Origin: Ditibartonella apis
GTDB taxonomy: Bacteria; Pseudomonadota; Alphaproteobacteria; Rhizobiales; Rhizobiaceae
Assembly: GCF_001952075.1 (NCBI RefSeq)
Contig: NZ_LXYU01000001.1
Location: 916,732 to 980,731, forward strand
Direction of reading: 5' to 3'
Length of the DNA: 64,000 bases
Shown: piece by piece, positions 29,389 to 45,937 of the stretch
How positions within the stretch are numbered: position 1 is the stretch's first letter
Layout of the letters: each line of letters begins with the position of its first letter
Position numbers and translations under genes: made by a program
Notes under the pieces: generated by a model
Database searches by the model: none
The model's input: only the letters and a program-made list of their open reading frames with translations
What the model was told of the DNA's origin: nothing

Positions 29389-30045
29389 TTATTTTTGCAG
29401 TGCTCTATAGGCTCTGACAATCAACCTTTCGGATTGTTTGAGATAGGCCTTGAGAAGGCGTGCTGCTTTTTTCGGCTTTTCTTTTTTTAAGCTTTCGACG
29501 ATATCGCGGTTCATGGTGATAAAAGGCTGATGGAGCGATTGTAAATCGGTAACCAGACCGAAGATTAGCCGCAACTCGATTGTGATTTCGGAAAATAACC
29601 GGTCAAGCCGCGGACTGTTGCCAAGGCTTACCAGCAATTGGTGAAATTCCATATCGGCAGTGCCGACATCCTGCCATTTTTCTTCTTCACAAAGTTTTTC
29701 TGCTTTTTCAACCACCTTGTCCATCAAAACGACAGAGGGATGAGGAAAATTTATGTTGCGCACCGCGCCCACTTCGATAATGCGGCGCGCATTGTAAACA
29801 TCGATAATTGTATTGAAGTCGGGAACTGTTACAAAAACACCGCGATTGGCACGATATTCGACAAGTCCGTTTTTGGTGAGTATCCGGAATGCTTCCCGCA
29901 ATGTATTCCGTGAAACCGACAATTTTTTTGCAAGCATTGCTTCGCTTAAATGCTCGCCCGGATGATATTGGCCATTGATAATGCCTGTTTCAATCGCTTT
30001 GACTGTTTGGTCTGTAAGCGATATTTCGTCTTTGCCGGTTTTCAT
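29389..30045 (-). CDS. GntR-family regulator with FCD domain, probable pxp regulator
   Basis: 218-aa FadR-type regulator. The winged helix (residues about 5-70) includes LSVSRNTLREAFRILTKNGLVEYRANRGVFV; the C-terminal helical FCD domain contains the metal-ligand pattern DMEFHQLLVSLGNSPRLDRLF. ATG 30045 is chosen for its GGAAGGATT ribosome site rather than a GTG four codons upstream. It is divergent from pxpA, and the shared promoter contains nested palindromes ending in ATTGTT-c-AACAAT, which fits FadR-subgroup operators. Likely represses the 5-oxoproline operon; 5-oxoproline as effector is inference. Confidence 0.9.
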   Translation of the reverse strand: MKTGKDEISLTDQTVKAIETGIINGQYHPGEHLSEAMLAKKLSVSRNTLREAFRILTKNGLVEYRANRGVFVTVPDFNTIIDVYNARRIIEVGAVRNINFPHPSVVLMDKVVEKAEKLCEEEKWQDVGTADMEFHQLLVSLGNSPRLDRLFSEITIELRLIFGLVTDLQSLHQPFITMNRDIVESLKKEKPKKAARLLKAYLKQSERLIVRAYRALQK

Positions 30046-30202
30046 AATCCTTCCCACTCCTCAATTTTTAACCGAGCGCAAGCGCTCGCGCAAAGTCTTG
30101 AATTGAAATGCATAAAACCTGATAGCAAAATCGCAATCCTCCCGTTTAAATATCCTCCAAATATATTTACAAGTTTATTTGAGAAAGAACATGATTGCAA
30201 TG

Positions 30203-30233
30203 TCTAACAATCAAAGTTAGATTGTTCAACAAT
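30203..30233. promoter_or_regulatory. Nested palindromes, candidate GntR operator for pxp
   Basis: Three overlapping inverted repeats: TCTAAC/GTTAGA (30203-30221), AACAATC/GATTGTT (30206-30226) and the compact ATTGTT-c-AACAAT (30221-30233). They lie 44-74 bases upstream of the pxpA ATG in the divergent promoter shared with the GntR gene. The compact 13-bp palindrome matches the TTGT-n3-ACAA form common in FCD-type GntR sites. Confidence 0.55.
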
Positions 30234-30276
30234 ATAAAATAAACAAAAATCTATATTCTGCAAAAGGGAGGTTAGA

Positions 30277-31038
30277 ATGAAATCAATTGATTTGAACAGC
30301 GATCTTGGTGAAAGTTTTGGTCCCTGGAAAATGGGCGAAGATAGCGAAATGTTGTCTATTGTTACCAGTGCCAATGTCGCTTGTGGTTTTCATGCTGGCG
30401 ACCCTGCCGGAATGTTGCGCACACTCGAGGCAGCCAAGAAGAATAATGTGCGCGTTGGTGCCCATATCGGCTATCGTGACCTTGTGGGCTTCGGACGCCG
30501 CAATATGGACCCGACCGATAGTGAATTGACGGGCGACGCCATTTATCAGATCGGGGCGCTCATGGGGCTTGCCAAAGCGGCAGGAACCAAAGTTTCATAT
30601 GTAAAGCCGCATGGCGCGCTCTATAATACAATTGCCCATGATATGCGTCAGGCGAAAGCCGTTATCAATGCGATCAAAGCGGTTGAGCAGTCGCTGGTAT
30701 TGATGGCATTGGCGGGCTCGGACATTATTCCTTTTGCGCGTGAAGCCGGAGTTGTTGTGGTGGCAGAAGCTTTTGCCGACCGTGCCTATAAGAGTGATGG
30801 TACACTTTTATCCCGCCGCGAAAAAGGTGCTGTGCTGAGTGACCCCGCTAGCGTTGCCGAACGTATGGTGAAATTTGTCGAGACAGGAAAAATTACCGCG
30901 ATTGATGGCAAAGAGATTACCCTTGATGCACAGTCAATCTGCCTTCATGGCGACAGTCCGAGTGCCGTATTAATGGCCAAAGCTGTCAAAGCCGGTCTTG
31001 AAAAAGCCGGAGTTTCTTTAAAGCCATTTGTTGATTGA
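30277..31038 (+). CDS. pxpA: 5-oxoprolinase subunit PxpA (LamB/YcsF family)
   Basis: 253-aa subunit of the ATP-dependent 5-oxoprolinase PxpABC, which opens 5-oxoproline to glutamate. The family is unmistakable: [52 protein letters not shown] and [11 protein letters not shown]. The ATG follows AAGGGAGG. It is first in an operon with the PxpB-PxpC fusion (18-base gap) and a biotin carboxylase-BCCP protein. The homologue family hydrolyses activated cyclic amides. Confidence 0.95.
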
Positions 31039-31055
31039 GGGGGTGTCTTTGTTCC

Positions 31056-32840
31056 ATGCGCTTTCTCGGTGTCAATAATTCGGCCTTTCTGATCGAGCTT
31101 GCCGATCTTGAAGAAACATTGGCTTTGTTTGACCGTTTGCAGCAAGAAATTCGGCGCGGAGAGAAAGATCTGCAAGATCAAGAAAAACTTCGAGCTATTG
31201 TCGAAATTATTCCGGCAGCGCGGACCTTGCTTATCAGATTTGATCCCTTGCTTGCCGATGAAAACACATTGGAGACAAAAATTGCGGGATTGAAACTTGA
31301 AAAAGGGCAACAAAAAAGCGGTAAACTTGTCGAAATACCGGTTGTCTATGACGGGGAAGATCTTGACGATGTTGCCGCTCTTTTAAAAATTGACCGTGAA
31401 GATGTTATCCGTCGTCATACAGAAAGCCATTATCAGGTTGCTTTTTGTGGTTTTGCTCCCGGTTTTGCCTATTTGACCGGCGGCGATCCCGTTTTTAATG
31501 TTCCAAGACGCGCATCACCACGAAAATCTATTCCCGCCGGTTCTGTTGCACTTGCAGGGAAATTCGGCGGTGTCTATCCGCAACCGAGCCCCGGTGGCTG
31601 GCAATTGATCGGGCGGACAGACGTTAAAATGTTTGATCTCGATCGCGACCCGCCTTCACTTTTAAAACCTGGTGACAGAGTGCATTTTGTCGATGTGACG
31701 AAAGACTATTCTGCACATTCCAAAGGGACGACAAGCCTTTCTTTGTCACGAAATGACGAGGCCGGTTTAGCAAAAACGTGTGATAAAACCGAAGCAACAG
31801 AAATCGGGAAAGCAACGGGCATCGGGAAAACGGGCAGTCATGACAACGCCGGAATTTCTGTCCCCGAAACGAGCTTAACGCCTGAAGAAGATGCGGTTTT
31901 CAAATTGGTAACTACATTGATGCCGGTGACGTTTCAGGATCGCGGGCGCTTGTTCCAATCCTCGCAAGGGCTTTCTCCTTCAGGGGCGCTTGACCAGAAA
32001 GCAATGGCCAATGCCAACCGGCTTGTCGGCAATCCGCGTGAACAACCGGTGCTGGAATTCACCTATGGAAATGCGCGTATGAAAGCATTGCAACCATCGG
32101 TTATTGCTTTTACCGGTGCTAACCTGCCGATTACCGTCAAATCGGCTAAAAGCACGGTTTTTGTTTTTGAAAAAAACACGCCCCTTGCCATTGATGAAGG
32201 CGATGAAATCATTCTCGGACGACCATTCACAGGCTTTCGCAGTTATATGGCTTTGCGTGGCGGTTTTAAAGTTGAACCGGTTTTAAAAAGTGCGTCTTTT
32301 GACAGTCTTTCCAATTTGGGGCCGAAACCGCTCGTGGCAGGTGACAAGGTCTTTATAGCCAATGATAGCCCTTTGCAGCCGGTTTTATTGTCGCTTGATG
32401 ATCCTTATTCCTTGCCGGAAGCAGGCGATAAAGTGGTGCTTGATGTGGTTATGGGGCCGCGTACCGATTGGTTTACAGAGCAATCAATTGCAATGTTTCT
32501 TGAAAAACCGTGGCAAGTAACGGCAGCTTCCAACAGAATTGGCATAAGATTACAAAGTGACGCCCGTCTCGAGCGCTCGCGAAGCGATGAATTGCCAAGT
32601 GAAGGCACGGTGACTGGCGCAATAGAAGTTCCTGCAAATGGCGAGCCGGTTTTGTTTTTGCGTGATCGGCCTGTTACCGGCGGTTATCCGGTCATTGCCA
32701 ATCTTATTGAAGATCAGATCGACCTTGCAGCACAAATTCCGATAGGGGCTTTTATCTGCTTTCGCGCCGTCAAAAATTTTTATGATAGCGAGCAGAAAAG
32801 CTTGAAGAGCGGTGCCAATAAAACTTCAACAACATCATGA
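31056..32840 (+). CDS. Fused 5-oxoprolinase subunits PxpB-PxpC (KipI-KipA, AHS1-AHS2)
   Basis: 594-aa fusion. Residues about 1-225 are the KipI/PxpB (AHS1) domain with YQVAFCGFAPGFAYLTGG, RRASPRKSIPAGSVALAG and YPQPSPGGWQLIGRT. Then comes a 60-residue low-complexity Lys/Gly/Thr linker. Residues about 285-590 are the KipA/PxpC (AHS2) domain with PVTFQDRGRLFQSSQGLSPSGALD. These domains together equal the carboxyltransferase half of urea carboxylase. The ATG at 31056 follows GAGGGGGTG; a TTG overlapping the pxpA stop is less likely. With PxpA it should form 5-oxoprolinase; with the following BC-BCCP gene it could instead be a biotin-dependent carboxylase. The order B-C in one chain is known from other bacteria. 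Confidence 0.9.
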   Translation: MRFLGVNNSAFLIELADLEETLALFDRLQQEIRRGEKDLQDQEKLRAIVEIIPAARTLLIRFDPLLADENTLETKIAGLKLEKGQQKSGKLVEIPVVYDGEDLDDVAALLKIDREDVIRRHTESHYQVAFCGFAPGFAYLTGGDPVFNVPRRASPRKSIPAGSVALAGKFGGVYPQPSPGGWQLIGRTDVKMFDLDRDPPSLLKPGDRVHFVDVTKDYSAHSKGTTSLSLSRNDEAGLAKTCDKTEATEIGKATGIGKTGSHDNAGISVPETSLTPEEDAVFKLVTTLMPVTFQDRGRLFQSSQGLSPSGALDQKAMANANRLVGNPREQPVLEFTYGNARMKALQPSVIAFTGANLPITVKSAKSTVFVFEKNTPLAIDEGDEIILGRPFTGFRSYMALRGGFKVEPVLKSASFDSLSNLGPKPLVAGDKVFIANDSPLQPVLLSLDDPYSLPEAGDKVVLDVVMGPRTDWFTEQSIAMFLEKPWQVTAASNRIGIRLQSDARLERSRSDELPSEGTVTGAIEVPANGEPVLFLRDRPVTGGYPVIANLIEDQIDLAAQIPIGAFICFRAVKNFYDSEQKSLKSGANKTSTTS

Positions 32841-32954
32841 AATCCTATGGAAATAGCAAGAACCGGAAAACATAAAGGCGAAACACCGGCTTTGCGAAAA
32901 ACAAGAGACAGGCTCGGTCAGAAAAATTATAAATTTACAGTAATGGGGACGTCC

Positions 32955-34703
32955 ATGAAAAAAATATTGATTGCCAATCGTGGAGAAATTGCATTGCGCA
33001 TTGTTCGTGCGGCACGCGATTACGGTGTATCTTCGGTTGCAATTTATGCCGATATCGACAGTTCGGCACCTTTTGTCAAAGAAGCAGACGAGGCTTTTTG
33101 TCTTAAGAGTGACAGGCCGGAAGAAACCTATCTTGATGGTAACAAGATTACTGAAATTGCCAAACGTTCGGGGGCTGATGCCATTCATCCAGGCTATGGC
33201 TTTTTGTCGGAAAGTGCCGAATTTGCGAAAGCCGTGATTGATGCCGGTCTCATCTGGATTGGGCCTGATCCGGAGGTAATTGATCTTTTGGGCGACAAGC
33301 TCAAAGCCCGCGCAGTTGCAAAAGAGGTAGGCGCGCCGCTTGTTGCCGGTAGCAACGGTATGATTACAAGTGGCAAGGATGTTATCGCATTTGCCGAAAA
33401 ATATGGCTTTCCCGTTGCAATCAAGGCCGCGCATGGCGGCGGCGGGCGCGGCATGAAGGTCGTATGGAAACGGGAAGAGGCTGAAGAGCTTTTCCAGTCG
33501 GCTGTTCGTGAAGCGGTTCAGGCTTTTGGCCGTGGCGAATGTTATGTCGAACAATTTCTTGACCGTCCCCGCCATGTGGAAGCGCAGGTAATTGCCGACA
33601 AAATGGGACATGTTGTGGTGCTTGGCACGCGTGATTGCTCATTGCAAAGGCGCAACCAGAAACTTGTCGAGGAAGCGCCGGCACCGTTTATTTCAGAGGC
33701 AGTTGAAAAACGTTTGAAGGAAGCAGCTACGAATATTTGTCGCCACGTCAATTATAGCGGCGTCGGGACGGTCGAATTCCTGTTGGGGCGCAATGATGTT
33801 GTTTCGTTTCTCGAAGTCAATACGAGGTTGCAGGTCGAACATCCGGTGACAGAAGAAACAAGCGGGCTTGATGTGGTGGTTGAACAATTCCGTATTGCCG
33901 ACGGTTTGCCTTTGACAATTGATAAAACGCCGTCACCTATCGGCCATGCCATTGAATTTCGCATCAATGCCGAGGATGTCGGACGCGGATTTTTGCCGTG
34001 TCCGGGAAAAATTACAAAGTTTTCGCCTCCCTCAGGCCCGGGTGTGCGGCTTGATAGTGGCGTTCGAGAAGGCGATGTAGTAGCCCCGCAATTTGACTCG
34101 ATGATTGCAAAATTGATCATTACCGGAAGAACCCGCGAAGAAGCGTTAAAGCGTGCAGCACGGGCTTTGAAAGAATTTGAAATTGAAGGTGTTGCAACGG
34201 TTTTGCCGTTTGACCGGCTTGTTGTTCAACATCCTGATTTTATTGGAGAAAACGGCTTTAAAGTTTATACACGCTGGATCGAAAACGATTTTGCCGAAAA
34301 ATTGGCTATGGAAAGCAGAGCCGATAAAATTGAGCCGCAAATCGAGCGTTTCGATATTGAAATCGACGGAAAGCGGGTGGAACTCGGTTTGCCCTTCCGG
34401 TTTTTGAAATTGCTTGAAGGGGCAGGAAACGCAGCAAATAGTGCACAAAATCCGCATTCCGATGATGGGAAACAAGTGAAGGCCGATAAGGGCGCTGGTG
34501 ATATTGCTGCACCAATTCCCGGAACAATCAAGGCTTGGCTCAAAAAGCAAGGCGAAAAAATAGAAGAAGGCGCAACGGTTGCGGTGATGGAAGCCATGAA
34601 AATGGAGACTGAAATTAAAGCCGAAACAAGTGGAACACTGGAAATCGTGAAACCGGAAGGCAGTATCACCAATGTCGGGGAAGTGATTGCCCGTATCCGC
34701 TAG
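32955..34703 (+). CDS. Biotin carboxylase-BCCP fusion (carboxylase alpha subunit)
   Basis: 582-aa cytosolic protein. Residues 1-445 form a biotin carboxylase with KILIANRGEIALRI, the ATP-grasp Gly-loop KAAHGGGGRGMKVV, and EVNTRLQVEHPVTE. After a short Ala/Asn/Lys-rich linker, the last 70 residues form a biotinyl domain with VMEAMKMETEIKAE, whose central Lys is the biotin site. ATG 32955 is chosen because GGGGACG precedes it and homologues begin MKKILIANRG. A MGTSM start four codons upstream is possible. It lies 114 bases behind the PxpBC fusion and ends in a terminator, so it belongs to the pxp operon. No separate beta subunit is nearby, so the AHS1-AHS2 protein is the natural partner. Confidence 0.9.
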   Translation: MKKILIANRGEIALRIVRAARDYGVSSVAIYADIDSSAPFVKEADEAFCLKSDRPEETYLDGNKITEIAKRSGADAIHPGYGFLSESAEFAKAVIDAGLIWIGPDPEVIDLLGDKLKARAVAKEVGAPLVAGSNGMITSGKDVIAFAEKYGFPVAIKAAHGGGGRGMKVVWKREEAEELFQSAVREAVQAFGRGECYVEQFLDRPRHVEAQVIADKMGHVVVLGTRDCSLQRRNQKLVEEAPAPFISEAVEKRLKEAATNICRHVNYSGVGTVEFLLGRNDVVSFLEVNTRLQVEHPVTEETSGLDVVVEQFRIADGLPLTIDKTPSPIGHAIEFRINAEDVGRGFLPCPGKITKFSPPSGPGVRLDSGVREGDVVAPQFDSMIAKLIITGRTREEALKRAARALKEFEIEGVATVLPFDRLVVQHPDFIGENGFKVYTRWIENDFAEKLAMESRADKIEPQIERFDIEIDGKRVELGLPFRFLKLLEGAGNAANSAQNPHSDDGKQVKADKGAGDIAAPIPGTIKAWLKKQGEKIEEGATVAVMEAMKMETEIKAETSGTLEIVKPEGSITNVGEVIARIR

Positions 34704-34818
34704 GAATCGCAACCTTTAAAAAATCGGTACTCGGAATTTAAAACCGTTTTTAAAACGGAGAAGCCAAGAACGGGAAAACTGCCGGTTTGGTAGTTAGGAC
34801 AAGCGTGCCGAGAGAAAG

Positions 34819-34850
34819 ACCAGCCTATAGAAAAAGGCTGGTTTTCTTTA
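34819..34850 (+). terminator. Terminator of the pxp operon
   Basis: ACCAGCC-tatagaaaaa-GGCTGGT followed by TTTCTTT, 115 bases after the BC-BCCP stop. It closes the pxpA-pxpBC-BC/BCCP operon. Confidence 0.75.
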
Positions 34851-34969
34851 AGAATGATGATTGTTACAAAATCGAACAATGTTGCCGAAATTTCGGGTGT
34901 CCATCCACACCATGATGTGTTTCGTGAGCATTAGTTACAAGTGCGAACGAAGCCCGAATATCGGCCTGC

Positions 34970-35263: not shown

Positions 35264-35365
35264 TCCTTGTTGCCAAAACCGAATTGTTGTTTTGGCGTTC
35301 TTCGGGAACATTGTCGTTTCCGAAACCTTCACCAACAATGCAGGAAAGAGTTGGAAAGGTTACCC

Positions 35366-36427
35366 GTGTCACCTAAAAATAATTGTTCTAACCCTTTGCC
35401 GGAACATTATGTGACCCGTTATTATAAAAGTGGTCCGCTCAATGCGCTCACAGATGTTGCCGGTGTCAAAGTAGGCCATGTGACGATCAAGGAGGGGGAC
35501 GCAATCCGCACCGGCGTCACAGCAATTGTGCCGCATTCCGACAATATTTTCCAAAACAAAATACCGGCGGGTTTTAGTGCATTTAACGGTTATGGAAAAT
35601 TTGCAGGCTCTGTTCAGGTGGAAGAACTTGGAGAGCTTGAAACACCGATATTGCTCACCAATACGCTTGCAACCGGTCGCGCGATTGAAGCACTGATCTA
35701 TTACACTTTGCATGAAAAGGGCAATGAATACGTAACATCCATCAATGCTGTTGTCGGTGAAACCAATGATTCACGGCTGAATAATATCCGTCTTTTGCGC
35801 CCGAGCTTTGATGAAATGCTCGAAGCTTTGAAAATTGCACGCCCCGGCCGGTTTGAAGAGGGGGCAGTGGGTGCTGGTACCGGCACAGTGGCCTTCGGTC
35901 TTAAAGGCGGTATCGGCACGGCCTCGCGCCTCGTAAAAATGGACGACAAAACCTATACAATCGGTATCCTTGTGCAGTCGAATTTTGGCGGGCATCTTGG
36001 AATTCTCGAAAAAAGCGACATAAATCACCCCGTACCGAGTGCGGATAAAGACGGGTCGATTATGATGATTGTTGCAACCGATGCGCCCCTTTGCCCAAGA
36101 CAATTGAAACGGCTTGCCAACCGGACATTCGGCGGGCTTGCCAAAAGTGGAGCAGCTTTGAGCAATGGCTCGGGCGATTTTGCACTTGCCTTTTCGACGG
36201 CAAAAGAACTTCGTCATAGGGAAGAAGAATCGCATTTGGTTGATGTTCCCCATATTGACGATCGCGCTCTTTCGCCCATGTTCGAGGCGGTCATAGAAGC
36301 AACCGAAGAAAGCATTTTACGGTCTTTATGGATGGCTGAAGATATGTCGGGCGTGAATGCCGCAACCATGAAACCTTCGCATTTTACCTCGCTTGCCACA
36401 CTTATCAACAGTGCCGCAACAGACTGA
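35366..36427 (+). CDS. P1-family (DmpA/DmpA-like) N-terminal aminopeptidase
   Basis: 353-aa member of the self-processing P1 peptidase family (DmpA, beta-peptidyl aminopeptidase BapA), Ntn-type hydrolases that remove N-terminal, sometimes D- or beta-, amino acids. Visible family blocks: LTDVAGVKVGHVTI near the start, TGVTAIVPH, NAVVGETNDSRLNN, GAVGAGTGTVAFGLKGGIGTASR, and GAALSNGSGDFALAFST, the segment holding the autocleavage/nucleophile Ser. The GTG at 35366 follows GGAAAGG; no good upstream start exists. It lies between the pxp and gsi operons on the same strand and probably supplies or degrades small peptides taken up by Gsi. Confidence 0.87.
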   Translation: MSPKNNCSNPLPEHYVTRYYKSGPLNALTDVAGVKVGHVTIKEGDAIRTGVTAIVPHSDNIFQNKIPAGFSAFNGYGKFAGSVQVEELGELETPILLTNTLATGRAIEALIYYTLHEKGNEYVTSINAVVGETNDSRLNNIRLLRPSFDEMLEALKIARPGRFEEGAVGAGTGTVAFGLKGGIGTASRLVKMDDKTYTIGILVQSNFGGHLGILEKSDINHPVPSADKDGSIMMIVATDAPLCPRQLKRLANRTFGGLAKSGAALSNGSGDFALAFSTAKELRHREEESHLVDVPHIDDRALSPMFEAVIEATEESILRSLWMAEDMSGVNAATMKPSHFTSLATLINSAATD

Positions 36428-36837
36428 TTTTTAAAGAAAAACAGCAAGCCCCCAAGCAATTTACATGCCAGTTTCAAAAGTTTTTAAAAAAAACACTTGA
36501 ACGACAAGTACGATTTAGGGAATAAAACCGGCTTTGACGGTTTTAAAAAAGGTAAAGCAGGAATGTGCCCGCAAAAGACATATTCGGCGGCATTTTTAAT
36601 CGTGAGCGATCTTTTCTTGTGTCCTAAGGGTCAAGACAGCGAGATTCTGGTGAGTGTGTCATAGCAAGACAGTTTAAAGGCGCTGTCGATGACAACGGGT
36701 TGCTCTGTCCATGGTTTTGCCTAAAACAACCATAGTGAGTGGAAAGAATTTGAGAAAAAACCTTTCGTTGAAATTTGAGTACGTTAAAAAAGCGGGTGGA
36801 GTCAGCTTTTTCAAACGCGTTCCGGAAAGCGGTTGAA
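36428..36837. other. Promoter region of the gsi operon
   Basis: About 410 bp. The start AAACACTTGAACGACAAG region near 36491 and TTGTGTCC near 36618 are unremarkable. A minus-strand frame at 36624-37151 mirrors gsiA and is not a gene. No clear operator found. Confidence 0.35.
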
Positions 36838-38739
36838 ATGTCGGAAGAAAAGAGGTTGGTCAATTTGGATGCGCCGCTATTAAACGTAAAAGGCCTTGAT
36901 GTCGATTTCAAAACCGAAGACGGTAATTTCCGTGCGGTGAAGTCGCTTGATTTTTCGGTCAATGCCGGTGAAACATTGGCAATAGTGGGCGAAAGCGGCT
37001 CCGGAAAATCGGTAACGTCGCTCTCTATTATGCGTCTTATCGAATTCGGCGGTGGTAAAATTTCTTCCGGTGAGGTGCTCTTCAACGACAAGAGTGCTGT
37101 GCGCGATCTTACAAAGCTTTCCCAATCGCAAATGAATAGCGTTCGCGGCAAAAATATTGCGATGATTTTTCAGGAACCTATGACATCGCTCAATCCTGTT
37201 TTCACTATAGGTGACCAGATTGGCGAGGCAATCCGTCTTCATCAGGGGGGTACACACAAGGAAGTGCGTCAGGAAGCGCTTGCCATGCTTGAAAAGGTGC
37301 GTATTCCCGATGCCAAGGGGCTCCTTGATCGCCACCCGCACCAGCTTTCCGGTGGTATGCGCCAAAGGGTGATGATTGCAATGGCACTTGCCTGTCGCCC
37401 GCAACTTCTTATTGCCGACGAACCGACAACCGCACTTGATGTGACAATTCAAGCGCAGATTTTGCGCCTTATCCGCATGTTACAGGACGAGCTTGGCATG
37501 GGCGTGGTCTTTATCACCCATGATATGGGCGTGGTTGCCGAGGTTGCCGACCGCGTGCTTGTGATGTGTCGTGGTGACAAGATCGAAGAAGGCACGTCGA
37601 ACGAAATTTTCAAGCATCCGAAACGGCCTTATACGCAAGCTCTGCTTGCCGCAGTTCCCCAACTTGGCGCACTCGCCAATGAAAAATTGCCACGTCCTTT
37701 CGATATACGCGAGCCTGGTAAAGATGCGGTTGAAGCACTGCCACAGGATACAGTGAAGCTTGATGATGTTGTGCTTGATGTCAAGAAACTCGTAACCCGT
37801 TACGATGTCAAAAAGAACTTTTTCGGCAAAGTGACAGGGCGGGTTCACGCCGCAGAGCAGGTGAGTTTTTCCATTAAAGCCGGTGAAACGCTGGCGCTTG
37901 TCGGAGAAAGCGGTTGCGGCAAATCCACAGTCGGGCGCACGATCATGCAATTGACCGAACCACGGAGCGGTGAAATCCTGCTTCACGGGCGCGACATTTT
38001 AAAAATGGATAATGCCGAGCGCCACAAGATACGCCAGAACATCCAATATGTGTTTCAGGATCCGTTTGCCTCACTTGATCCGCGCTTGACTGTCGGCTTT
38101 TCCATTGCCGAACCCTTGTTGACGCACAAACTCGTTCCCTCAAACAAGGTTGACGAGCGCGTGCAGGAATTGTTGCAGGCGGTTGGCCTGCCGCCACATG
38201 TGGCACGCCGTTACCCGCATGAATTTTCCGGTGGTCAGCGCCAACGCCTTTGTATTGCCCGCGCATTGGCTTGTGGGCCGGAACTCCTCATTGCCGACGA
38301 GGCAGTGGCCGCCCTTGATGTTTCCATTCAGGCGCAAATCGTCAATCTGCTGATGGACTTGCAAAGAAAATTGGGCCTATCCTATCTTTTTATCAGCCAT
38401 GATATGGCTGTGGTGGAGCGCATTAGTCACCGTGTGGCGGTGATGTATCTTGGCCAGATTGTCGAAATCGGTCCAAGGCAAGCAGTGTTCAATCATCCGC
38501 TTCACCCTTATACGCAGCGTCTGCTTGCCGCCGTACCGATAGCCGATCCGGCGCGCCGGTTTATCAAGCGGCCGCTCATTGAAGGGGAAGTTCCAAGTCC
38601 TGTACGGGTACCCGGTGATGAACCTTTGGTCGAGCCACTCGTTGAAGTAGAGCCGGAACATTTTGTTGCCTGTCATCCGGTGGGCATTTTTGAACGCGTT
38701 GAACAATCCGGTCTATTGTTTGAAGGAGAGGGAAAATGA
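36838..38739 (+). CDS. gsiA: Glutathione/peptide ABC importer ATPase, double cassette
   Basis: 633-aa protein with two ATPase cassettes in one chain, as in E. coli GsiA (623 aa). Cassette 1: [29 protein letters not shown]. Cassette 2: [35 protein letters not shown], and the oligopeptide-binding C-terminal motif after [12 protein letters not shown] 36838 is chosen; a TTG 63 bases upstream would add 21 residues without homology. It overlaps gsiB by ATGA. It energises import of glutathione or related peptides in E. coli; substrate here is inferred from the operon. Confidence 0.9.
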
Positions 38740-40268
38740 AGCTTGTTAAACGATATTTTGCAGCCGGACTGGTTTCGGTATTGGCAGCAATGCCGGTTTG
38801 GGCAGAAGCCAAACCGTTGGCTGTCGGTGTCGAATTCAACCTCACCAAACTTGACCCCACCAATATCAATGACACATTGACAATGACATCGCTGCGCACG
38901 GTCTATCAGGGGCTGTTGGGTTTCGACAAGGATTACAAGATTATTCCGCTTCTGGCCGAACGTTATGAAGCTTCCAGTGATGCCAAGGAATTCACCTTTT
39001 ATTTGCGTAAAGGCGTCAAGTTCCATGATGGCACGGATTTTAACGCCGAGGCAGTGAAATTCAATCTTGACCGTTTGGCCAATCCGGAAAACAAATTGTC
39101 GCGGCGGGTGCTGATCTCGATGCTCGACCATGTCGACATTGTCGATGATTATACAGTCAAAATTTATCTCAAAGAGCCTTATGGGGCGCTGCCATCTTCG
39201 CTTGCCCACCCCGGCACAATGATGATTTCTCCAGCTGCGATCAAAAAATATGGCAAGGATATTGACCGTCATCCTGTCGGAACCGGACCGTTCAAGTTCA
39301 AAAGCTGGAGCGGTGATATTTTCGAGGTGACAAAAAACGAGAATTATTGGGGTAAAGTTGCCGATGTCGATGGCGTTGTGATCCGCTCGGTTCCCGAAAG
39401 TGGCGCCCGTTTTGCCATGCTTCAGGCCGGTGAATTGCAATTTGTTCCCGATTTTCCTTCCGAACTTGTTGAAGTTGCCAAAAAGATACCGACACTTGAC
39501 GTAACAACAGCCCCGTCGATCTATGAATTCTATACGTCGATGAATGTCATGAAAAAACCTTTTGATGACATAAGGGTTCGCAAAGCCCTGAACTATGCCG
39601 TCAATAAGGAAGCTTTCTGCAAGGTTGTCCTGAACGGCTATTGTGAACCGGCAACATCGTCGATTCCGCCGCTATTACGCTTTTATACCAATGTCGGACG
39701 ATATGAATATAACCCTGAAAAAGCCAAACAATTGCTGGCCGAGGCAGGCTATGCAAACGGTTTTGAAACAGAGGTTTTTTCAAGAAACAGCACGGCCGTT
39801 ATTCGTGCCATGCAGTTTTTGCAACAGGAACTTGCCAAGGTCAATGTCAAGGTTACGGTAACGCCGCTTGAAGCCGGTGTTGAGGCTGACCGTGTCTGGG
39901 GTGCCGAGACACCTGAAAAATCCGACGTGCAATTGCTTTATAGCGGCTGGTCGGCTTCAACGGGTGATGCCGATTATGGCCTGCGTCCGCTTTTTGCCAG
40001 CGAAAGCTTTCCGCCCAATCTTTATAACACCTCCTATTATAAAAATGAAAAGGTCGATCAGGCTCTCGCCGAAGGCATAAAAACCGCTGATGATACAAAA
40101 CGGGCGGAAGCTTATAAAATTGTCCAGCAAACGGTGTTTGAAGATGCACCGTGGATTTTTATGGGTGAAAAGCAGAATATTTCTGTAAAAACCAAGAAAT
40201 TGTCAGGCGTTTACATGTTGCCGGATGGCGGTTTCTCGGTTGATGGCGCCAAATTTACCGGTGAATGA
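38736..40268 (+). CDS. gsiB: Glutathione/peptide-binding protein, copy 1
   Basis: Periplasmic solute-binding protein of 510 aa in family SBP_bac_5. A 23-residue signal peptide ends at PVWAEA. Hallmarks are TKLDPTNINDTLTMTSLRTVY, LAERYEASSDAKEFTFYLRKGVKFHDG and HPVGTGPFKFKSW. It overlaps gsiA by ATGA and is followed by a hairpin-terminator and a second, highly similar copy. It captures glutathione in E. coli; the duplicated copy suggests two peptides are recognised. Confidence 0.9.
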   Translation: MKLVKRYFAAGLVSVLAAMPVWAEAKPLAVGVEFNLTKLDPTNINDTLTMTSLRTVYQGLLGFDKDYKIIPLLAERYEASSDAKEFTFYLRKGVKFHDGTDFNAEAVKFNLDRLANPENKLSRRVLISMLDHVDIVDDYTVKIYLKEPYGALPSSLAHPGTMMISPAAIKKYGKDIDRHPVGTGPFKFKSWSGDIFEVTKNENYWGKVADVDGVVIRSVPESGARFAMLQAGELQFVPDFPSELVEVAKKIPTLDVTTAPSIYEFYTSMNVMKKPFDDIRVRKALNYAVNKEAFCKVVLNGYCEPATSSIPPLLRFYTNVGRYEYNPEKAKQLLAEAGYANGFETEVFSRNSTAVIRAMQFLQQELAKVNVKVTVTPLEAGVEADRVWGAETPEKSDVQLLYSGWSASTGDADYGLRPLFASESFPPNLYNTSYYKNEKVDQALAEGIKTADDTKRAEAYKIVQQTVFEDAPWIFMGEKQNISVKTKKLSGVYMLPDGGFSVDGAKFTGE

Positions 40269-40275
40269 CAATAAG

Positions 40276-40300: not shown

Positions 40301-40356
40301 GAAAACTTTTATCAACAAACCGATAAATCTCGACAAACCAACGAAATGGATGATTG

Positions 40357-41886
40357 ATGTTGAATTTGAAACGATTGCTTGCTGCGGGGCTCGTCTGTAC
40401 CACCATGTTGATGCCGGCTCTGTCAGAAGCCAAAACGTTGACGGTTGCCGTTCCTGTCAATCTGACAAAGCTCGACCCGACCAATATCAATGATACATTG
40501 ACCATGACTTCGCTCAGGACGATTTATGAAGGCTTGTTGGGGTTTGACAAGGATTTGAAAATTGTACCGCTTCTGGCCGAACGTTATGAAGCTTCGGAAG
40601 ACGCCAAAGAATTTACCTTCTATTTGCGCAAAGGTGTGAAGTTTCATGACGGCGCAGACTTTAACGCAGAAGCAGTAAAAATCAATCTTGAACGTCTCGC
40701 AAATCCTGAAAACAAATTGTCGCGTCGCGTTCTTGTCTCCATGCTCGATCATGTTGAAGTCGTGGATGATTATACCGTCAAGGTTATCCTCAAAGAACCC
40801 TATGGTGCTTTTCCATCTTCCATGGCGCATACCGGCACCATGATGATTTCTCCGGCGGCTCTAGAAAAATATGGTCGCGATATTGATCGCCACCCCGTTG
40901 GCACCGGCCCGTTTATTTTCAAAAACCGTTCAAGCGACACGCTTGAAGTCATAAAAAACGACCATTACTGGAATGGCACTGTCGGCGTTGATGGCGTCAC
41001 TATCCGTTCGGTACCGGAAAATGGTGCGCGTTTTGCTATGTTGCAGGCACAAGAAGTGCAATTTGTTCCCGATTTTCCGCCGGAACTTTTTGCTGTTGCA
41101 CAAAAAATGCCCAATCTGGTTGTGACGAAAGATCCGTCTATTGCGGAATATTATGTGGCAATCAACACAATGAAAAAGCCGTTCGACGATGTGCGTGTGC
41201 GGCAGGCAATGAACTATGCGGTTGATAAAAATGCCTTCTGCAAAGTCGTGATGAACGGTTTTTGTGAACCGGCCACATCACCTATTCCGCCACTCCTGAA
41301 ATATTACACCAATGTCGGAGAGTATGAATATAATATAGAAAAAGCCAAACAGCTTTTGATAGAAGCCGGTTACCCGAATGGTTTCAATACCGAAATTTTT
41401 GGCAAAAACAGCACCATGGTCATTCGTGGTTTGCAGTTTTTGCAGCAGCAACTGGCGGCAGTGAATATCAAGGTGAATGTTACACCGCTTGAAGCCGGTG
41501 TCGAGGCTGACCGCGTCTGGGGGGCAAGAACACCCGAAGAATCGACAGTGCAAATGCAGTTTGGAGGCTGGTCGGCATCAACCGCCGATGCCGATTACGG
41601 AATGCGCCCGCTTTTTTCTAGCGAAAGCTTCCCGCCCAATCTCTTCAACGTTGCCTATTATAAAAATGCCGAGGTCGACAAAGATCTTTCAGATGCCGTC
41701 AAAACGGCAGATGACACAAAACGCGCCGAACTTTACGGCAAAGCGCAAAAGATCATCTTTCAGGATGCACCATGGATATTCCTTGGACAGAAAGACGTGC
41801 TTTCCGGCAAAACAAAAAACCTTGAAGGCGTTTACGCATTGCCGGATGGCGGTTTTCTTTTGAAAGATGCAAAGTTTACCGATTGA
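40357..41886 (+). CDS. Glutathione/peptide-binding protein, copy 2 (gsiB paralogue)
   Basis: 509-aa paralogue of the preceding gene with the same signal-peptide layout (cleavage near SEA-KT) and nearly co-linear sequence; most residues are shared in the regions read, for example TKLDPTNINDTLTMTSLRTI and LAERYEAS. Differences cluster in the N-terminal 20 residues, the hinge and around FVPDFPPELFAVAQKMPNL. The ATG at 40357 aligns with copy 1. Tandem duplication is the simplest origin. Flanking hairpins on both sides would set it apart from the permease genes in expression. Confidence 0.87.
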   Translation: MLNLKRLLAAGLVCTTMLMPALSEAKTLTVAVPVNLTKLDPTNINDTLTMTSLRTIYEGLLGFDKDLKIVPLLAERYEASEDAKEFTFYLRKGVKFHDGADFNAEAVKINLERLANPENKLSRRVLVSMLDHVEVVDDYTVKVILKEPYGAFPSSMAHTGTMMISPAALEKYGRDIDRHPVGTGPFIFKNRSSDTLEVIKNDHYWNGTVGVDGVTIRSVPENGARFAMLQAQEVQFVPDFPPELFAVAQKMPNLVVTKDPSIAEYYVAINTMKKPFDDVRVRQAMNYAVDKNAFCKVVMNGFCEPATSPIPPLLKYYTNVGEYEYNIEKAKQLLIEAGYPNGFNTEIFGKNSTMVIRGLQFLQQQLAAVNIKVNVTPLEAGVEADRVWGARTPEESTVQMQFGGWSASTADADYGMRPLFSSESFPPNLFNVAYYKNAEVDKDLSDAVKTADDTKRAELYGKAQKIIFQDAPWIFLGQKDVLSGKTKNLEGVYALPDGGFLLKDAKFTD

Positions 41887-41905
41887 GACGGAGTTTTTTG
41901 AATTG

Positions 41906-41938
41906 AACCCGTGGTTATCCATTGGAACACGGGTTTTT
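41906..41938 (+). terminator. Internal hairpin with T-run after gsiB copy 2
   Basis: AACCCGTG-gttatccattggaa-CACGGGTT then TTT, 20 bases after the stop. A second GC-rich hairpin, GGCGCG-tgtt-CGCGCC (41962-41977), follows before gsiC. The pair separates binding-protein and permease expression. Confidence 0.65.
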
Positions 41939-42003
41939 AAACTGGATAATAACGGAGAATAGGCGCGTGTTCGCGCCGTTCAGCCTAAATTTCGGGATTT
42001 TCG

Positions 42004-42924
42004 ATGTTTGCTTTTATTATCAAACGCCTGCTTTCCATCATACCGGTGATATTTGTTATATCACTCATCGTATTCGGTTTTGTCCGGCTTTTGCCGGGCG
42101 ATCCTGCCCGCCTTGCGGCCGGTGTTGATGCCGATGCGGAAACGGTGGAAGCTATGCGCTCGCAACTTGGTCTTGATCGGCCGGTATGGGCGCAATATGT
42201 GACCTTTGTGGAAAACGCTGTTCATGGTGATTTTGGCGAATCCTTGAAAACCCGCAAACCCGTTTCGACAGAAATCGGCGAACGTTTTATGCCAACTGTC
42301 TGGCTCACCGTCTTTTCGATGATCTGGTCAACCATATTGGGGCTACTCATCGGTGTTTTTTCGGCGGTCAAAAGAGGGCGTTGGCAGGATTATACCGGTA
42401 TGGTCGTGGCCGTTTCCGGCATTTCATTTCCGGTCTTCTGGCTTGGCCTTCTCTTGATTAATCTCTTTTCTGTGCGGCTTGGCCTTCTTCCAACCGGCGG
42501 TTATGGAACGGCACTTCATTTTATCATGCCGTCATTTACACTCGGCGTCGGGGTTGCCGCCGTGATGGCGCGCTTCTCGCGTTCGGCCTTTATCGAAATA
42601 TCACGTGAGGATTATATCCGCACAGCGCGCGCCAAGGGGGTTCCCGAACGTCTGGTGACATGGAAACACACATTGCGCAATGCGCTTATTCCGGTCATCA
42701 CCATGGTGGGCTTGCAATTCGGCTTTTTGCTTGGTGGCTCGATTGTTGTCGAAACAGTGTTTTCGTGGCCGGGGCTTGGAAGACTGTTGATCGATTCTGT
42801 GTCCTATCGCGACTATCCGGTTCTTCAGGCACTGATCTTGCTCTTTTCACTGGAGTTCATCCTTATCAATCTTCTGGTTGATGTTCTCTATGCTTTTGTT
42901 AATCCGGAGATCCGTTACTCATGA
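42004..42924 (+). CDS. gsiC: Glutathione/peptide ABC importer permease GsiC
   Basis: 306-aa inner-membrane permease (DppB-type). Blocks: [33 protein letters not shown], and the cytoplasmic EAA loop [31 protein letters not shown], ending in [20 protein letters not shown]. About six helices. It overlaps gsiD by ATGA, so both are coupled. E. coli GsiC has the same length. Confidence 0.93.
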
Positions 42925-43808
42925 GTGCGAACACTTCATCCGATACACTTGTTGCCGAGGCAACGCGCAAGCCCTTCGGCGAATTTTTGCGCCGTTTCGC
43001 GCGCCAGAAAGCGGCAATTGTGGCGCTTGTTTTTCTGCTTTTGTTGATCGGCTCGGCTATTTTCGCTCCCTTATTCATGACGCTTGATCCCAATAGTGCC
43101 GATTATAATGCCATTTTGCAGGGATCATCTGCTGCCCATTGGGCGGGAACCGATGAATATGGCCGCGATATATTTACCCGCATCATTTATGGCGGGCGTA
43201 TTTCTCTGGCAGTCGGTTTTCTGTCGGTTACGCTTGGCGGTCTTATCGGGGTGTTTCTGGGAATTCTTGCAGGCTTTTATGGCGGCTTTCTTGACTCGCT
43301 TATTATGCGCATTTCGGATGTGCTGTTTGCCTTCCCCGGCATTTTGCTTGCCATTGCCGTGATTGCCATTCTGGGACCGGGAATTGACAATGTGATTTAT
43401 GCAGTTGCAGTGTTTTCTGTACCGGTTTTTGCCCGCCTTTCGCGCGGAACGACACTTTCGATGAAAAAGGCTGTCTACATTGATGCGGCGCGTGCCATCG
43501 GTGTTTCCGATCATATGATTGTGCTGCGCCATTTGCTGCCCGGAACCTTGCCTAATGTGATTGTCTATTTTTCCATGCGTATCGGCACGTCTATTTTAAC
43601 CGCTGCAAGCCTTTCGTTCATCGGCCTCGGGGCACAACCACCAAGCTCGGAATGGGGAGCAATGCTTGCCGCAGGGCGCAGCTATATGGGCGTTGCCGAC
43701 CACCTCACCCTTTATCCGGGTATTGCAATTTTCGTCACGGTTTTGGCCTTCAATGTTTTTGGCGATGGCTTGCGTGACGCGCTAGATCCGAAAATCGACG
43801 TCAATTGA
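42921..43808 (+). CDS. gsiD: Glutathione/peptide ABC importer permease GsiD
   Basis: 295-aa inner-membrane permease (DppC-type) with an N-terminal OppC_N segment ([26 protein letters not shown]), then [25 protein letters not shown] and the EAA loop [23 protein letters not shown]. It ends with LDPKID, as is usual. Coupled to gsiC and followed after 61 bases by iaaA. A palindromic GCTATTTTT-t-AAAAATAGC (43822-43840) sits in between. Confidence 0.93.
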
Positions 43809-43869
43809 CCGGCGTCGAAACGCTATTTTTTAAAAATAGCCTGAAATGGTTTTTTGAAAGGACTTTAAA

Positions 43870-44799
43870 ATGTCGTCTCCTGTAAAACCGGTTATCGCCA
43901 TTCATGGTGGAGCCGGCACAATGCGCTCGAAAGATATGACGGAAGAAAAGGAAAGAGCCTATCGTCATGGATTGACATTGGCACTCGAGGCAGGGCGGGC
44001 AGTGCTAAAGGCAAATGGCTCGGCCGTTGATGCAGTCACCGCTTCCGTTATGGCACTGGAAGATGATCCGCTTTTTAATGCCGGTCGTGGTGCCGTTTAT
44101 ACCACCAAACGCACGCAGGAAATGGATGCCGCCATTATGGACGGGCGCGACAGGAATGCCGGTGCCGTTGCCGGAATTTTCGGGCCGCGTCATCCGGTTC
44201 TTGCAGCCCGCGCTGTTATGGAAAAAACCGAACATGTTTTCCTTGCCGGTGAAGGGGCCAACGAATTTTGCCGCGAGATCGGGCTTGAGATCAAACCGGC
44301 CGAATGGTTTTATACCGAACGGCGCATGAAAGCGCTTGAACAGGAAATGGAGCGACGCCGTAATGGTGGCGAAGAAAATGATCCTTCACGGCGCCACGGC
44401 ACAGTCGGCGCTGTTGCCTGTGACGTTTTCGGCCATGTGGCAGCAGCAACATCGACCGGCGGAATGACTGCCAAGTTCCCCGGTCGTGTCGGCGATAGTC
44501 CGGTTATCGGTGCCGGTACATGGGCAGATGACAAAACCTGTGCAGTTTCGGCAACCGGACATGGCGAATATTTCATCCGCTATGCCGCAGCGCACGAAAT
44601 CGACGCCCGTATCCGCTGGGGAAAAGAAACACTTGAAGAAGCCGCGCAATCGGTTGTCAAAGATCTCGCAAAAATTGGCGGCGAGGGCGGGCTTATTGCC
44701 GTCAATGCCAAGGGCGAAGTGTGCCTGCCTTTCAATAGCGAGGGAATGTATCGCGCATGGATGGGGCAGGACGGTGAAATCCATACCGGCATTTATTGA
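43870..44799 (+). CDS. iaaA: Isoaspartyl peptidase/L-asparaginase (Ntn hydrolase)
   Basis: 309-aa precursor of a self-cleaving Thr hydrolase that removes isoaspartyl residues from peptides and hydrolyses asparagine. Autocleavage occurs before Thr178 in RRHGTVGAVACD, matching Thr179 of E. coli IaaA. Other blocks: IAIHGGAGTM, FNAGRGAVYT, VGDSPVIGAGTWAD and ATGHGEYFIR. In E. coli the same gene opens the iaaA-gsiABCD operon; here it follows gsiD, which supports the Gsi assignment. The ATG follows GAAAGGAC. Confidence 0.94.
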   Translation: MSSPVKPVIAIHGGAGTMRSKDMTEEKERAYRHGLTLALEAGRAVLKANGSAVDAVTASVMALEDDPLFNAGRGAVYTTKRTQEMDAAIMDGRDRNAGAVAGIFGPRHPVLAARAVMEKTEHVFLAGEGANEFCREIGLEIKPAEWFYTERRMKALEQEMERRRNGGEENDPSRRHGTVGAVACDVFGHVAAATSTGGMTAKFPGRVGDSPVIGAGTWADDKTCAVSATGHGEYFIRYAAAHEIDARIRWGKETLEEAAQSVVKDLAKIGGEGGLIAVNAKGEVCLPFNSEGMYRAWMGQDGEIHTGIY

Positions 44800-45054
44800 T
44801 TTTCCGGCAATTGGTGATTGTTCGTTAAGTTTGTTAAGCGAAGGGCAAACTGTTTCCCTTTGCTTGGCATCTCTGCTTTGAAGTTGGTTTCAGAATTTCA
44901 TTTCAATATCGGTTTGTCAGCTTTCTTTTCCGGAACATTTCTAAGCCGGAAAAACTATAAGCCCGCTTTGATAAAGTGTGCCAAGATCAATGTCGAAATT
45001 TGAAGCTTCACAATCCAAAAGCCGGTCTTGTTTTACCATTGAAAGCCGGTTATC

Positions 45055-45086
45055 CCAAAAAGCAAAAGCGGGGGAAAGCCCGCTTT
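45055..45086 (-). terminator. Bidirectional-type hairpin terminating dppA
   Basis: AAAGCGGG-ggaaag-CCCGCTTT (45065-45086); on the minus strand it is followed by TGCTTTTTGG, 30 bases after the dppA stop. It may also end transcripts coming from iaaA in the opposite direction. The rest of the 44800-45115 spacer shows no gene. Confidence 0.75.
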
Positions 45087-45115
45087 CATAGTTCAAAAAA
45101 AGTTCAAGCTTTCTT

Positions 45116-45937
45116 TCACATGACCGAAGCGGCAAGTGCAGAAACAGCACTCATCCAGCCGATTGCATCACGAACCGAATTGCAGTCAAAGCCGATTGTT
45201 ACCGCATCAATACGCTTGGCAGGAGGCAGATGTGCGGCCTGATCGGCAAGGGCAGGCAAAAGAACCTCGAATTTCACCATAAAAGGTGGGCGTATAATGA
45301 AGGGTTTCATGTCATGTCTGTTTTTGACAGCTTCAAAGGCGGCCGCTTTTATTTTTTCGCACGATTTTGTGGGCGAGAGCGAACGCGCAGCACGATTGGT
45401 ATAAGCGTGTTTGACCGTTGCAAATCTCGCTTTGGGGAAGAATTCCCTGTTTTGTTCTTCAAGGCAATTGTCGCCGGTTAAAAGCCCGACAGGGATACCG
45501 AGTTCGCCCGCATAAGCGCCATAAATGCCGGGTTCTCCCAATCGTTTGTCACCAAGATAGACAGCACGGAAAGCGCGGCTGTTGGTGGTGTGGGCAAGCA
45601 CGCCTTCAAGACTTGCTCCGGCATGGTGGCCAACAAGAAAAACCATGTCGAAACCGCCATCGGCAAGCCCGCAAGCCATATTTTGCGGTTTCGGTTTTCC
45701 CTGAATAAGTTCCGCATCGGGATGGAGGAGTTCGGGAACAAGATTGACCATTGCACCATGGGAATCGTTCACAACAACTTCTTTTGCACCGGCTTCAAAT
45801 GCACCGGTAACAGCAGCATTGACTTCGTTGGTCATCAGGCGGCGCGCCCGTTCATATTCGGCATTGCCGGATGAACATTGCTGAGGGATAACCACACCGG
45901 CTACCCCCTCTATATCGGCTGAAATGTAAATTTTCAT
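45116..45937 (-). CDS. dppA: D-aminopeptidase, M55 family (DppA)
   Basis: 273-aa zinc aminopeptidase of the DppA family, which frees D-amino acids from peptides such as peptidoglycan-derived D-Ala-containing ones. Zinc-binding residues are in place: Asp8 and Glu10 in ISADIEG, His60 in NDSHG, His104 in GHHAG, and the GDNCLEEQ block near residue 170. ATG 45937 is chosen, as the motif starts at residue 1; a longer upstream frame lacks homology. Convergent with iaaA; completes the peptide-processing set of the island. Confidence 0.9.
   Translation of the reverse strand: MKIYISADIEGVAGVVIPQQCSSGNAEYERARRLMTNEVNAAVTGAFEAGAKEVVVNDSHGAMVNLVPELLHPDAELIQGKPKPQNMACGLADGGFDMVFLVGHHAGASLEGVLAHTTNSRAFRAVYLGDKRLGEPGIYGAYAGELGIPVGLLTGDNCLEEQNREFFPKARFATVKHAYTNRAARSLSPTKSCEKIKAAAFEAVKNRHDMKPFIIRPPFMVKFEVLLPALADQAAHLPPAKRIDAVTIGFDCNSVRDAIGWMSAVSALAASVM

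Follow-up and report, generated by a model that had tools for sequence, protein, structure and literature searches.

A predicted biotin-dependent 5-oxoprolinase locus beside a Gsi-type peptide importer module in Ditibartonella apis

We examined a 64,000-nucleotide stretch of Ditibartonella apis DNA (contig NZ_LXYU01000001.1, positions 916,732 to 980,731; hereafter the window, whose genus is Bartonella in the present analysis) for the genes surrounding a predicted 5-oxoprolinase, pxpABC. The genome to which it belongs comprises 2.60 Mb in 16 contigs, and the relatives of such Bartonella are dwellers of the bee gut. The locus consists of two neighbouring modules: gntR and, divergent from it, pxpA-pxpBC-BC/BCCP, and next to these P1 aminopeptidase-gsiABB′CD-iaaA with dppA opposite. 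The initial annotation had listed these genes as a single scavenging island, and Pfam and NCBIfam scans verified every one of them at its place, with gntR and dppA on the minus strand and all other named genes on the plus strand. We lean towards reading the first module as a 5-oxoproline-induced, biotin-dependent 5-oxoprolinase and both modules as serving nitrogen scavenging, a reading predicted from sequence. The most informative gene of the island is the one coding for a biotin carboxylase (BC) joined to a biotin carrier (BCCP), from which the initial annotation had drawn no inference. The first module contains the following features.

29389–30057, minus strand: GntR/FCD regulator, PxpR-type (Pfam GntR and FCD); likely start 30045
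30219–30235, no strand: PxpR-type operator AGATTGTTCAACAATAT, 16 of 17 bases as in the Corynebacterium glutamicum PxpR operator
30277–31038, plus strand: pxpA, LamB/YcsF lactamase subunit (Pfam PF03746, 338 bits; NCBIfam PxpA subfamily NF003814, 373.5 against a cut-off of 226)
31035–32840, plus strand: pxpBC fusion, carboxyltransferase C/D then A/B (CT_C_D and CT_A_B, Pfam); likely start 31056
32847–34703, plus strand: BC-BCCP, biotin carboxylase and biotin carrier in a single chain with an EAMKME site (Pfam); likely start 32955
34819–34850, plus strand: candidate intrinsic terminator 3′ of BC-BCCP, with an ACCAGCC/GGCTGGT stem and a TTTTCTTT tail, found by eye

The likely true starts, which lie inside several of the open reading frames, were picked by eye. 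PxpA, PxpB and PxpC are all present and adjacent, the PxpC part scoring 167.7 against an NCBIfam equivalog cut-off of 500. BC-BCCP shows the Pfam domains Biotin_carb_N/C, CPSase_L_D2 and Biotin_lipoyl, that is, a BC domain followed by a BCCP with EAMKME in its sequence, which we take to be the biotin-attachment motif.

The substrate of the module is indicated by its regulatory region. In C. glutamicum, the regulator PxpR binds 5-oxoproline with a KD (dissociation constant) of 726 nM, but does not bind Pro, Glu, Gln or Asp; its operator is agattgttcaacaatct, the mutation or deletion of which raised reporter output 6.5-fold (PMC13274462; this and the other papers are cited from excerpts). The gap between gntR and pxpA in the window holds the 17-mer listed above, which is near-identical to the operator that had been mutated and tested, and it is the only site genome-wide with at most one mismatch; there are 25 further sites with three mismatches, against two for a reversed control pattern. 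Of 80 named loci examined by tblastn, 62 have a GntR homologue divergent from pxp; the 80 are the best of 570 relatives found with the fused PxpBC and therefore come from the part of the family nearest to the window. In the window and the 62 loci the core TTGTNNNACAA was present in 51 of the 63 stretches upstream of gntR (300 bases, 235 in the window), compared with a mean of 0.24 and a maximum of 3 in 100 single-base shuffles, and it also lies between gntR and pxpA in all ten other Bartonella loci. Because the operator matches that of a 5-oxoproline sensor, 5-oxoproline is very probably the pxp substrate, which upholds the assignment made for PxpABC by the initial annotation, and PxpR-type control with induction by 5-oxoproline is predicted from the same match. 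Two more exact core palindromes in the window, with a poor fit to the 17-mer, were not counted as PxpR sites. One is at 2756 inside an open reading frame; the other, an exact 11-bp GntR-type palindrome at 12373, lies upstream of an operon (8225–12084) that encodes an NMT1-type ABC transporter and an acyl-CoA dehydrogenase-like protein.

The arrangement thus resembles pxpR/pxpTABC of C. glutamicum in its divergent GntR regulator, its operator and, by name, its PxpA, PxpB and PxpC families (PMC13274462). It differs in that PxpB and PxpC are separate there and accompanied by the permease PxpT, with no biotin subunit mentioned in the excerpts of that paper, while in the window PxpB and PxpC are fused, BC-BCCP follows, and no Nramp-type permease was found. 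By tblastn, 78 of the named loci contain pxpA and 76 contain BC-BCCP; 37 have an Nramp-type permease and 36 a gene for D-glutamate cyclase. The four fused loci lacking BC-BCCP all belong to Actinomycetota. For the Nramp protein, both 5-oxoproline uptake (PMC13274462) and Mn import (PMC10448178) have been claimed. The window and 13 Bartonella loci gave no match to either Nramp or D-glutamate cyclase. One named locus, L079 from Gilliamella sp. wkB178, a member of another bee-gut genus, has the fused pxp set and an Nramp permease and gave no gntR match.

The PxpBC fusion was matched in 34 of the 121 genomes searched, including that of the window and ten others of the same genus (G006, G007, G008, G014, G021, G041, G052, G055, G058 and G070). 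Within the family and order, 20 pxp loci that are unfused or partial were inspected, and five of them have BC nearby; they come from 20 of the 23 matching genomes outside the genus (left out were G073, a urea carboxylase; G105, fused; and G113, a contig fragment). A four-domain fusion of PxpBC with BC-BCCP, sought as proof of contact, was not found among the loci, and in nine loci with both in a shared frame one to three stop codons lie between them. The window genome has four biotin carboxylase matches, one of them BC-BCCP, which is therefore not the sole supply of this activity. The search rows for pxpBC of G006 and G008 contain one TAA within the aligned stretch, and in G070 (L032) the BC-BCCP, gsiA and iaaA matches each come in two pieces.

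We compared residues across 156 loci, four of which were dropped (three without a carboxyltransferase A/B match and one without a usable PxpB). Columns 425 and 546 of PxpC proved the best class separators. All 91 fused rows with BC have L425 and P546, as do six of six urea carboxylases, while the 42 unfused rows without BC have R or K at 425 in 35 cases and Q546 in 38; PxpC of Escherichia coli has K and Q at these positions. L425 and P546 also occur in four rows without adjacent BC (L145, L148, L151 and L152), all of them Actinomycetota, and M425 with P546 was read by eye from HMMER alignments in Mycobacterium smegmatis 0435 and in Kluyveromyces lactis urea carboxylase. A second set of residues, R158, W189, S522, G536 and P552, unites the fused rows with classic PxpBC, apart from urea carboxylase, whose own Y189, D522, L548 and V552 occur in none of the 91 fused rows that have BC. 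Residue 158 corresponds to K1605 of the K. lactis urea amidolyase (KlUA), the likely general base of that enzyme (PMC5770610). Each of the 91 fused rows with BC carries Arg there, a state shared with classic PxpB, and all six urea carboxylases carry Lys. Fused PxpBC may accordingly be read as 5-oxoprolinase-like on its substrate side and urea-carboxylase-like on its carrier side.

The same pattern appears in a phylum sample of 150 genomes, 45 of which contain the carboxyltransferase A/B family in 61 matches. Nineteen of these are of urea carboxylase length as judged by open frame; 38 of the other 42 were used together with two urea carboxylases (the window itself, G105, G106 and the G113 fragment being left out), and the loss of three of the 38 left 35 usable non-urea loci. 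BC and BCCP are adjacent in all four retrieved fused PxpBC. A non-basic residue at 425 combined with P546 was found in five of the 35, four fused and one unfused, and all five have BC and BCCP adjacent; among the other 30, BC was present in five and a detected BCCP in none, the BCCP query being short enough to miss the carrier in one of six urea carboxylases and in 2 of 90 fused loci. L131, which had been grouped with urea carboxylases for its long open frame, has separate pxpA, PxpBC and BC-BCCP matches. A distinct unfused carboxyltransferase class (L169–L172, L195 and L197, as well as L163) is accompanied by a separate biotin carboxylase, retains the Lys, Tyr and Asp of the urea type and may act on a substrate other than 5-oxoproline.

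For a tree we took 86 of the 153 rows: 25 hand-picked for spread from the 91 fused ones with BC, and all others but L131. Rooted on urea carboxylase, it groups the fused sequences with L203 and the four rows of Actinomycetota that lack BC in a single branch with a Shimodaira–Hasegawa-like approximate likelihood ratio (SH-aLRT) support of 100. The association with BC needs six changes on this tree, which is a quick one with long branches. The AlphaFold2 (AF2) model of PxpBC has a predicted local distance difference test (pLDDT) score of 86.4 and matches structures 3mml, 5dud, 5i8i and 9yx5, although omission from the matches, as of chain V of 9yx5, is no evidence of absence. According to its title and sequences, PDB entry 9yx5 shows a homologous M. 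smegmatis pair, MSMEG_0435-0436, bound to a biotin carboxylase complex, that of long chain acyl-CoA carboxylase. This pair is PxpB/PxpC-like and, as noted, carries P546 and Met425; it differs from the window in consisting of two chains and in using AccA3, a biotin subunit shared with acyl-CoA carboxylases. The complex and the residue pattern, taken together, make PxpBC a putative carboxyltransferase partner in contact with the BCCP.

In the proposed reaction, the BC half of BC-BCCP would charge the biotin of the carrier domain with CO2 at the expense of ATP and bicarbonate, and the carboxyltransferase of fused PxpBC would hand the carboxyl to 5-oxoproline, most likely to the lactam nitrogen, although the case for this particular site is evenly balanced. 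PxpA would then hydrolyse the activated ring, and the carbamate product would lose CO2 to yield glutamate; the GntR protein would repress the operon until 5-oxoproline binds. That the biotin subunit takes part in opening 5-oxoproline is, judging from these comparisons, quite probable.

One competitor is a classic ATP-phosphorylating 5-oxoprolinase, in which 5-oxoproline would be phosphorylated by PxpBC, with BC-BCCP as a passenger or active elsewhere. Phosphorylation is the published view of PxpB/PxpC (PMC13274462), the fused and classic classes have the five residues from R158 to P552 in common, and a dedicated BC is probably dispensable for the reaction, since the 42 unfused rows have none within about 5.5 kb. 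We nevertheless consider it unlikely in view of the adjacency of BC-BCCP in 76 of 80 loci, the pattern at 425 and 546, the 9yx5 complex, and the presence of three other biotin carboxylases in the genome.

A different role is published for mumTLUHC of Acinetobacter baumannii, described as serving Mn import and urea breakdown, in which MumC would carboxylate urea and MumH hydrolyse allophanate (PMC5050338). By gene order, with sequences not compared, PxpA corresponds to MumL, PxpBC to MumH and BC-BCCP to MumC, and the mumT-L-U-H-C order fits Acinetobacter loci L110, L113 and L125 (Nramp, pxpA, D-glutamate cyclase, pxpBC, BC-BCCP), a match made by order and by what the paper calls T, H and C; the operon differs from the window in its LysR regulator, Nramp transporter and further gene (PMC5050338). 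The window genes also resemble urea carboxylase and urea amidolyase (3va7, 5i8i; PMC5770610) in BC, BCCP, homologous carboxyltransferase domains, P546 and a hydrophobic residue at 425, but the urea amidolyase has its domains in one chain, K1605 and an allophanate hydrolase, where the window has Arg and PxpA as partner. Deletion of mumC impaired the use of urea as sole nitrogen source, deletion of mumH left it intact, and both deletions raised calprotectin sensitivity (PMC5050338). Since mumH deletion spares urea use, urea carboxylation by MumC and MumH fits poorly if MumH is a carboxyltransferase, as its homology says; “allophanate hydrolase” domains of the MumH kind are most likely carboxyltransferases (PMC3199775). 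In the NCBIfam urea carboxylase model TIGR02712 (cut-off 1303.85), PxpBC and BC-BCCP, scanned singly, score far too low, at 125.5 and 495.8 bits. With the general-base Lys replaced by Arg, the four urea-side residues missing, and an operator of the 5-oxoproline sensor type, albeit one that the Acinetobacter loci themselves lack, a urea pathway in the window is very improbable.

Fungal LamA/LamB act on a 2-pyrrolidinone-like lactam, and the LamB family takes its name from lactam use. The enzyme might likewise open another lactam of this kind, or 5-oxo-D-proline. A gene of the D-glutamate cyclase family (PF07286) lies near pxp in the 36 fused loci counted above (at 9153–9968 in L110, for instance), which suggests a route from D-glutamate to 5-oxo-D-proline. 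This alternative appears decidedly unlikely for the window, given an operator that matches a sensor of 5-oxo-L-proline, substrate-side residues common to classic PxpBC, and the lack of any cyclase match in the window and in the 13 Bartonella loci.

Several observations weigh against biotin-dependent opening of 5-oxoproline. Of the 11 unfused rows with nearby BC, four are basic at 425 and nine are without P546, so the pattern is no rule outside the fused class; the Fisher p value for a non-basic 425 versus BC, 1.3e-4, overstates independence because residue states follow clades. Columns 175, 181, 187 and 190 of PxpB were dropped as biotin markers after a wider sample and Bacillus subtilis KipI had been considered: the PxpB side does not discriminate, as KipI also has G187 and Q190, and no biotin gene is named for its operon in the excerpts of the literature on it. 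Separate BCCP genes may have been overlooked elsewhere because of the short query. The excerpts of the open-licence literature searched name no biotin-dependent PxpABC and assume phosphorylation, and in the Acinetobacter operon of matching order a urea phenotype is reported for mumC, which encodes the biotin carboxylase (PMC5050338). Against a mechanism taken over from urea carboxylase, R158 is the strongest point: with Arg in place of the general-base Lys, the chemistry cannot simply copy that of urea carboxylase. The enzyme activity of the first module is itself a prediction.

Even so, the biotin part suggests a second, little-recognised bacterial way of opening the ring of pyroglutamate, in itself a metabolic dead end. 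In its broadest form, for and against which we see equal grounds, this reading extends across Pseudomonadota and Actinomycetota, where fused PxpBC, BC-BCCP and PxpA would form a second, widespread 5-oxoprolinase class that opens the lactam after biotin-dependent carboxylation. Classic PxpBC would descend from this class through loss of biotin and acquisition of a basic residue and a glutamine at the two carboxyltransferase positions, and those actinobacterial representatives that have no biotin subunit of their own would borrow a shared one of AccA3 type. Such a class would include the mum operon and the two-component 5-oxoprolinase of Pseudomonas putida, an enzyme known from the 1980s, whose component A consists of 64- and 51-kDa subunits and component B of 82 kDa; its genes are not linked to the enzyme, nor is biotin mentioned, in the excerpts of PMC8453981. 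In ten Pseudomonas loci, none from P. putida, the predicted masses are 55.3–57.2 kDa for PxpBC, 26.5–27.4 kDa for PxpA and, in nine of the ten (L119 excepted), 60.5–65.7 kDa for BC-BCCP, suggesting a resemblance of the two components to BC-BCCP plus PxpBC and to a PxpA trimer of about 81 kDa. How a bacterial 5-oxoprolinase activates its stable lactam is a matter in which, in the sources cited, phosphorylation is assumed and not settled. If it exists, a class with its own biotin carboxylase would make the question testable with avidin and bicarbonate, correct the label “allophanate hydrolase/urea carboxylase” on such genes, and offer an alternative reading of the Acinetobacter mum operon.

The initial annotation had noted that one step of glutathione breakdown must lie elsewhere or fall to another enzyme. 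A search of the window genome located ChaC outside the window (G000:C6:553031–553531, E 7e-42), as well as gshB, and found no match to gamma-glutamyltransferase (GGT) or pyroglutamyl peptidase. Among the Bartonella genomes checked, ChaC is present in seven of seven that bear pxp, that of the window included, versus 2 of 36 without pxp; among the 42 other same-genus genomes it occurs in eight, namely the pxp carriers G006, G007, G008, G014, G021 and G041 together with G003 and G012, and in none of the other 34, with four further pxp carriers standing outside this sample. Shared ancestry is not accounted for in the Fisher p value of 5e-6, and the carriers may belong to a single lineage; in the order, ChaC is common regardless of pxp (22 of 28 such genomes). 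Since ChaC is encoded elsewhere in the genome, glutathione may supply 5-oxoproline, and a ChaC route from glutathione is plausible. For the Bartonella group of the window, this suggests an internal path by which glutathione, acted on by ChaC, would end up as glutamate; ChaC would in this way link the two modules.

The second module comprises the following genes.

35267–36427, plus strand: P1/S58 DmpA-type aminopeptidase (Pfam PF03576, Peptidase_S58, 350 bits); likely start GTG 35366
36775–38739, plus strand: gsiA, double ATPase (NCBIfam NF007613, 865 bits, under the cut-off of 1077)
38736–40268, plus strand: gsiB1, binding protein (NF011942, 527 bits, under the cut-off of 594)
40354–41886, plus strand: gsiB2, binding protein (NF011942, 510 bits, under the cut-off of 594)
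42004–42924, plus strand: gsiC, permease (NF011661, 476.1 bits, over the cut-off of 463)
42921–43808, plus strand: gsiD, permease (NF011662, 407 bits, under the cut-off of 484)
43870–44799, plus strand: iaaA, isoaspartyl peptidase/asparaginase 2 (Pfam PF01112, Asparaginase_2, 349 bits)
45116–46003, minus strand: dppA, M55 D-aminopeptidase (Pfam PF04951, Peptidase_M55, 309 bits); likely start 45937

Peptidase_S58 is presumably equivalent to MEROPS P1. The module would take up small peptides, which may be glutathione or other isopeptides, and cleave D-, beta- and iso-linked bonds. In E. coli we indeed observed iaaA-gsiABCD, the operon that the initial annotation had invoked, in which glutathione importer genes are likewise combined with an isoaspartyl peptidase gene; there, however, iaaA comes first, gsiB is single, the stretch has no P1 peptidase or dppA, and pxpBCA lies elsewhere. 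Identity to the E. coli proteins amounts to 58% for GsiA, 44% for each of the two GsiB (73% identical to each other), 63% for GsiC, 58% for GsiD and 50% for IaaA. GsiC alone passes its NCBIfam glutathione equivalog cut-off, and GsiA, both GsiB and GsiD fail. The closest solved structure to GsiB1 is 1uqw, E. coli YliB, at 448.6 bits versus 280.2 for the next; YliB is GsiB, and no glutathione-contact residues were found in the excerpts of the paper concerned (PMC6236770). That this importer carries glutathione or gamma-glutamyl peptides is about as probable as that it does not.

The initial annotation had treated pxp and gsi as one system and proposed conservation of the joined loci as a check. 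Within the genus this part stands: a Gsi-type importer adjoins pxp in the window, S58-gsiABB′CD-iaaA directly follows pxp in seven of ten other same-genus loci, and the recurrence of order and orientation in relatives makes the arrangement more than chance. In the remaining three (G006, G008 and G041) an insert of roughly 7 kb separates pxp from S58-gsiA-gsiB1, at which the retrieved stretch stops. In G006 (L041:5679–12344) it holds a glycerol-type cassette (DeoR regulator, FAD oxidoreductases and FGGY kinase) and an amino-acid permease, with a similar gap in G008 and G041; on this content, annotated in G006 only, the insert was rejected as a part of the system. Outside Bartonella, a Gsi-like importer with both permeases was found beside pxp in 1 of 78 named loci (tblastn with window proteins). 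This lone case, in Rhizobium sp. Leaf306 (L102, 9194–18588), has the importer directly 3′ of fused pxp, with identities of 62% for gsiA, 29% for gsiB, 44% for gsiC and 46% for gsiD, and represents an independent pairing.

A single joint system is not borne out by the other evidence either. No PxpR-type site with at most one mismatch was found upstream of S58 or gsi, and a joint pxp-gsi regulon was rejected on this ground. A candidate terminator lies between the modules in the window; G021 retains it, G007 and G055 have lost part of it, and in G014 it was not seen; the G052 slice did not cover its position. S58 matches of at least 70% identity occur in the ten same-genus pxp genomes and in G012 and G018 (drafts, 85–86% completeness), and a G012 contig carries gsiB-gsiA-S58 beside lysR and ribD with no pxp between, so the two modules are separable. 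Around S58 homologues in six other genera of the family and order we found no iaaA, PxpBC, GsiB, GsiC or GsiD match; weak ATPase matches (25–33%) were present in three and biotin carboxylase in one.

It is only a little less probable than an even chance that the gsi/P1/iaaA/dppA module serves D- or beta-linked peptides from the cell wall or diet, unrelated to glutathione, and that its place beside pxp is incidental, which would be compatible with a biotin-dependent 5-oxoprolinase in the first module. Three peptidases for unusual bonds within 11 kb, the four sub-threshold Gsi proteins, and a likely separate unit that lacks a shared operator and occurs without pxp in G012 all point in this direction; the relationship of GsiB1 to E. 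coli GsiB, the pairing of iaaA with gsiABCD in E. coli, and the company that ChaC keeps with pxp in the genus sample point the other way. Adjoining dppA in the window are genes for the cobalt transporters CbtA and CbtB (46177–47256), and cbtA follows dppA in six of the seven relatives whose retrieved stretch extended that far.

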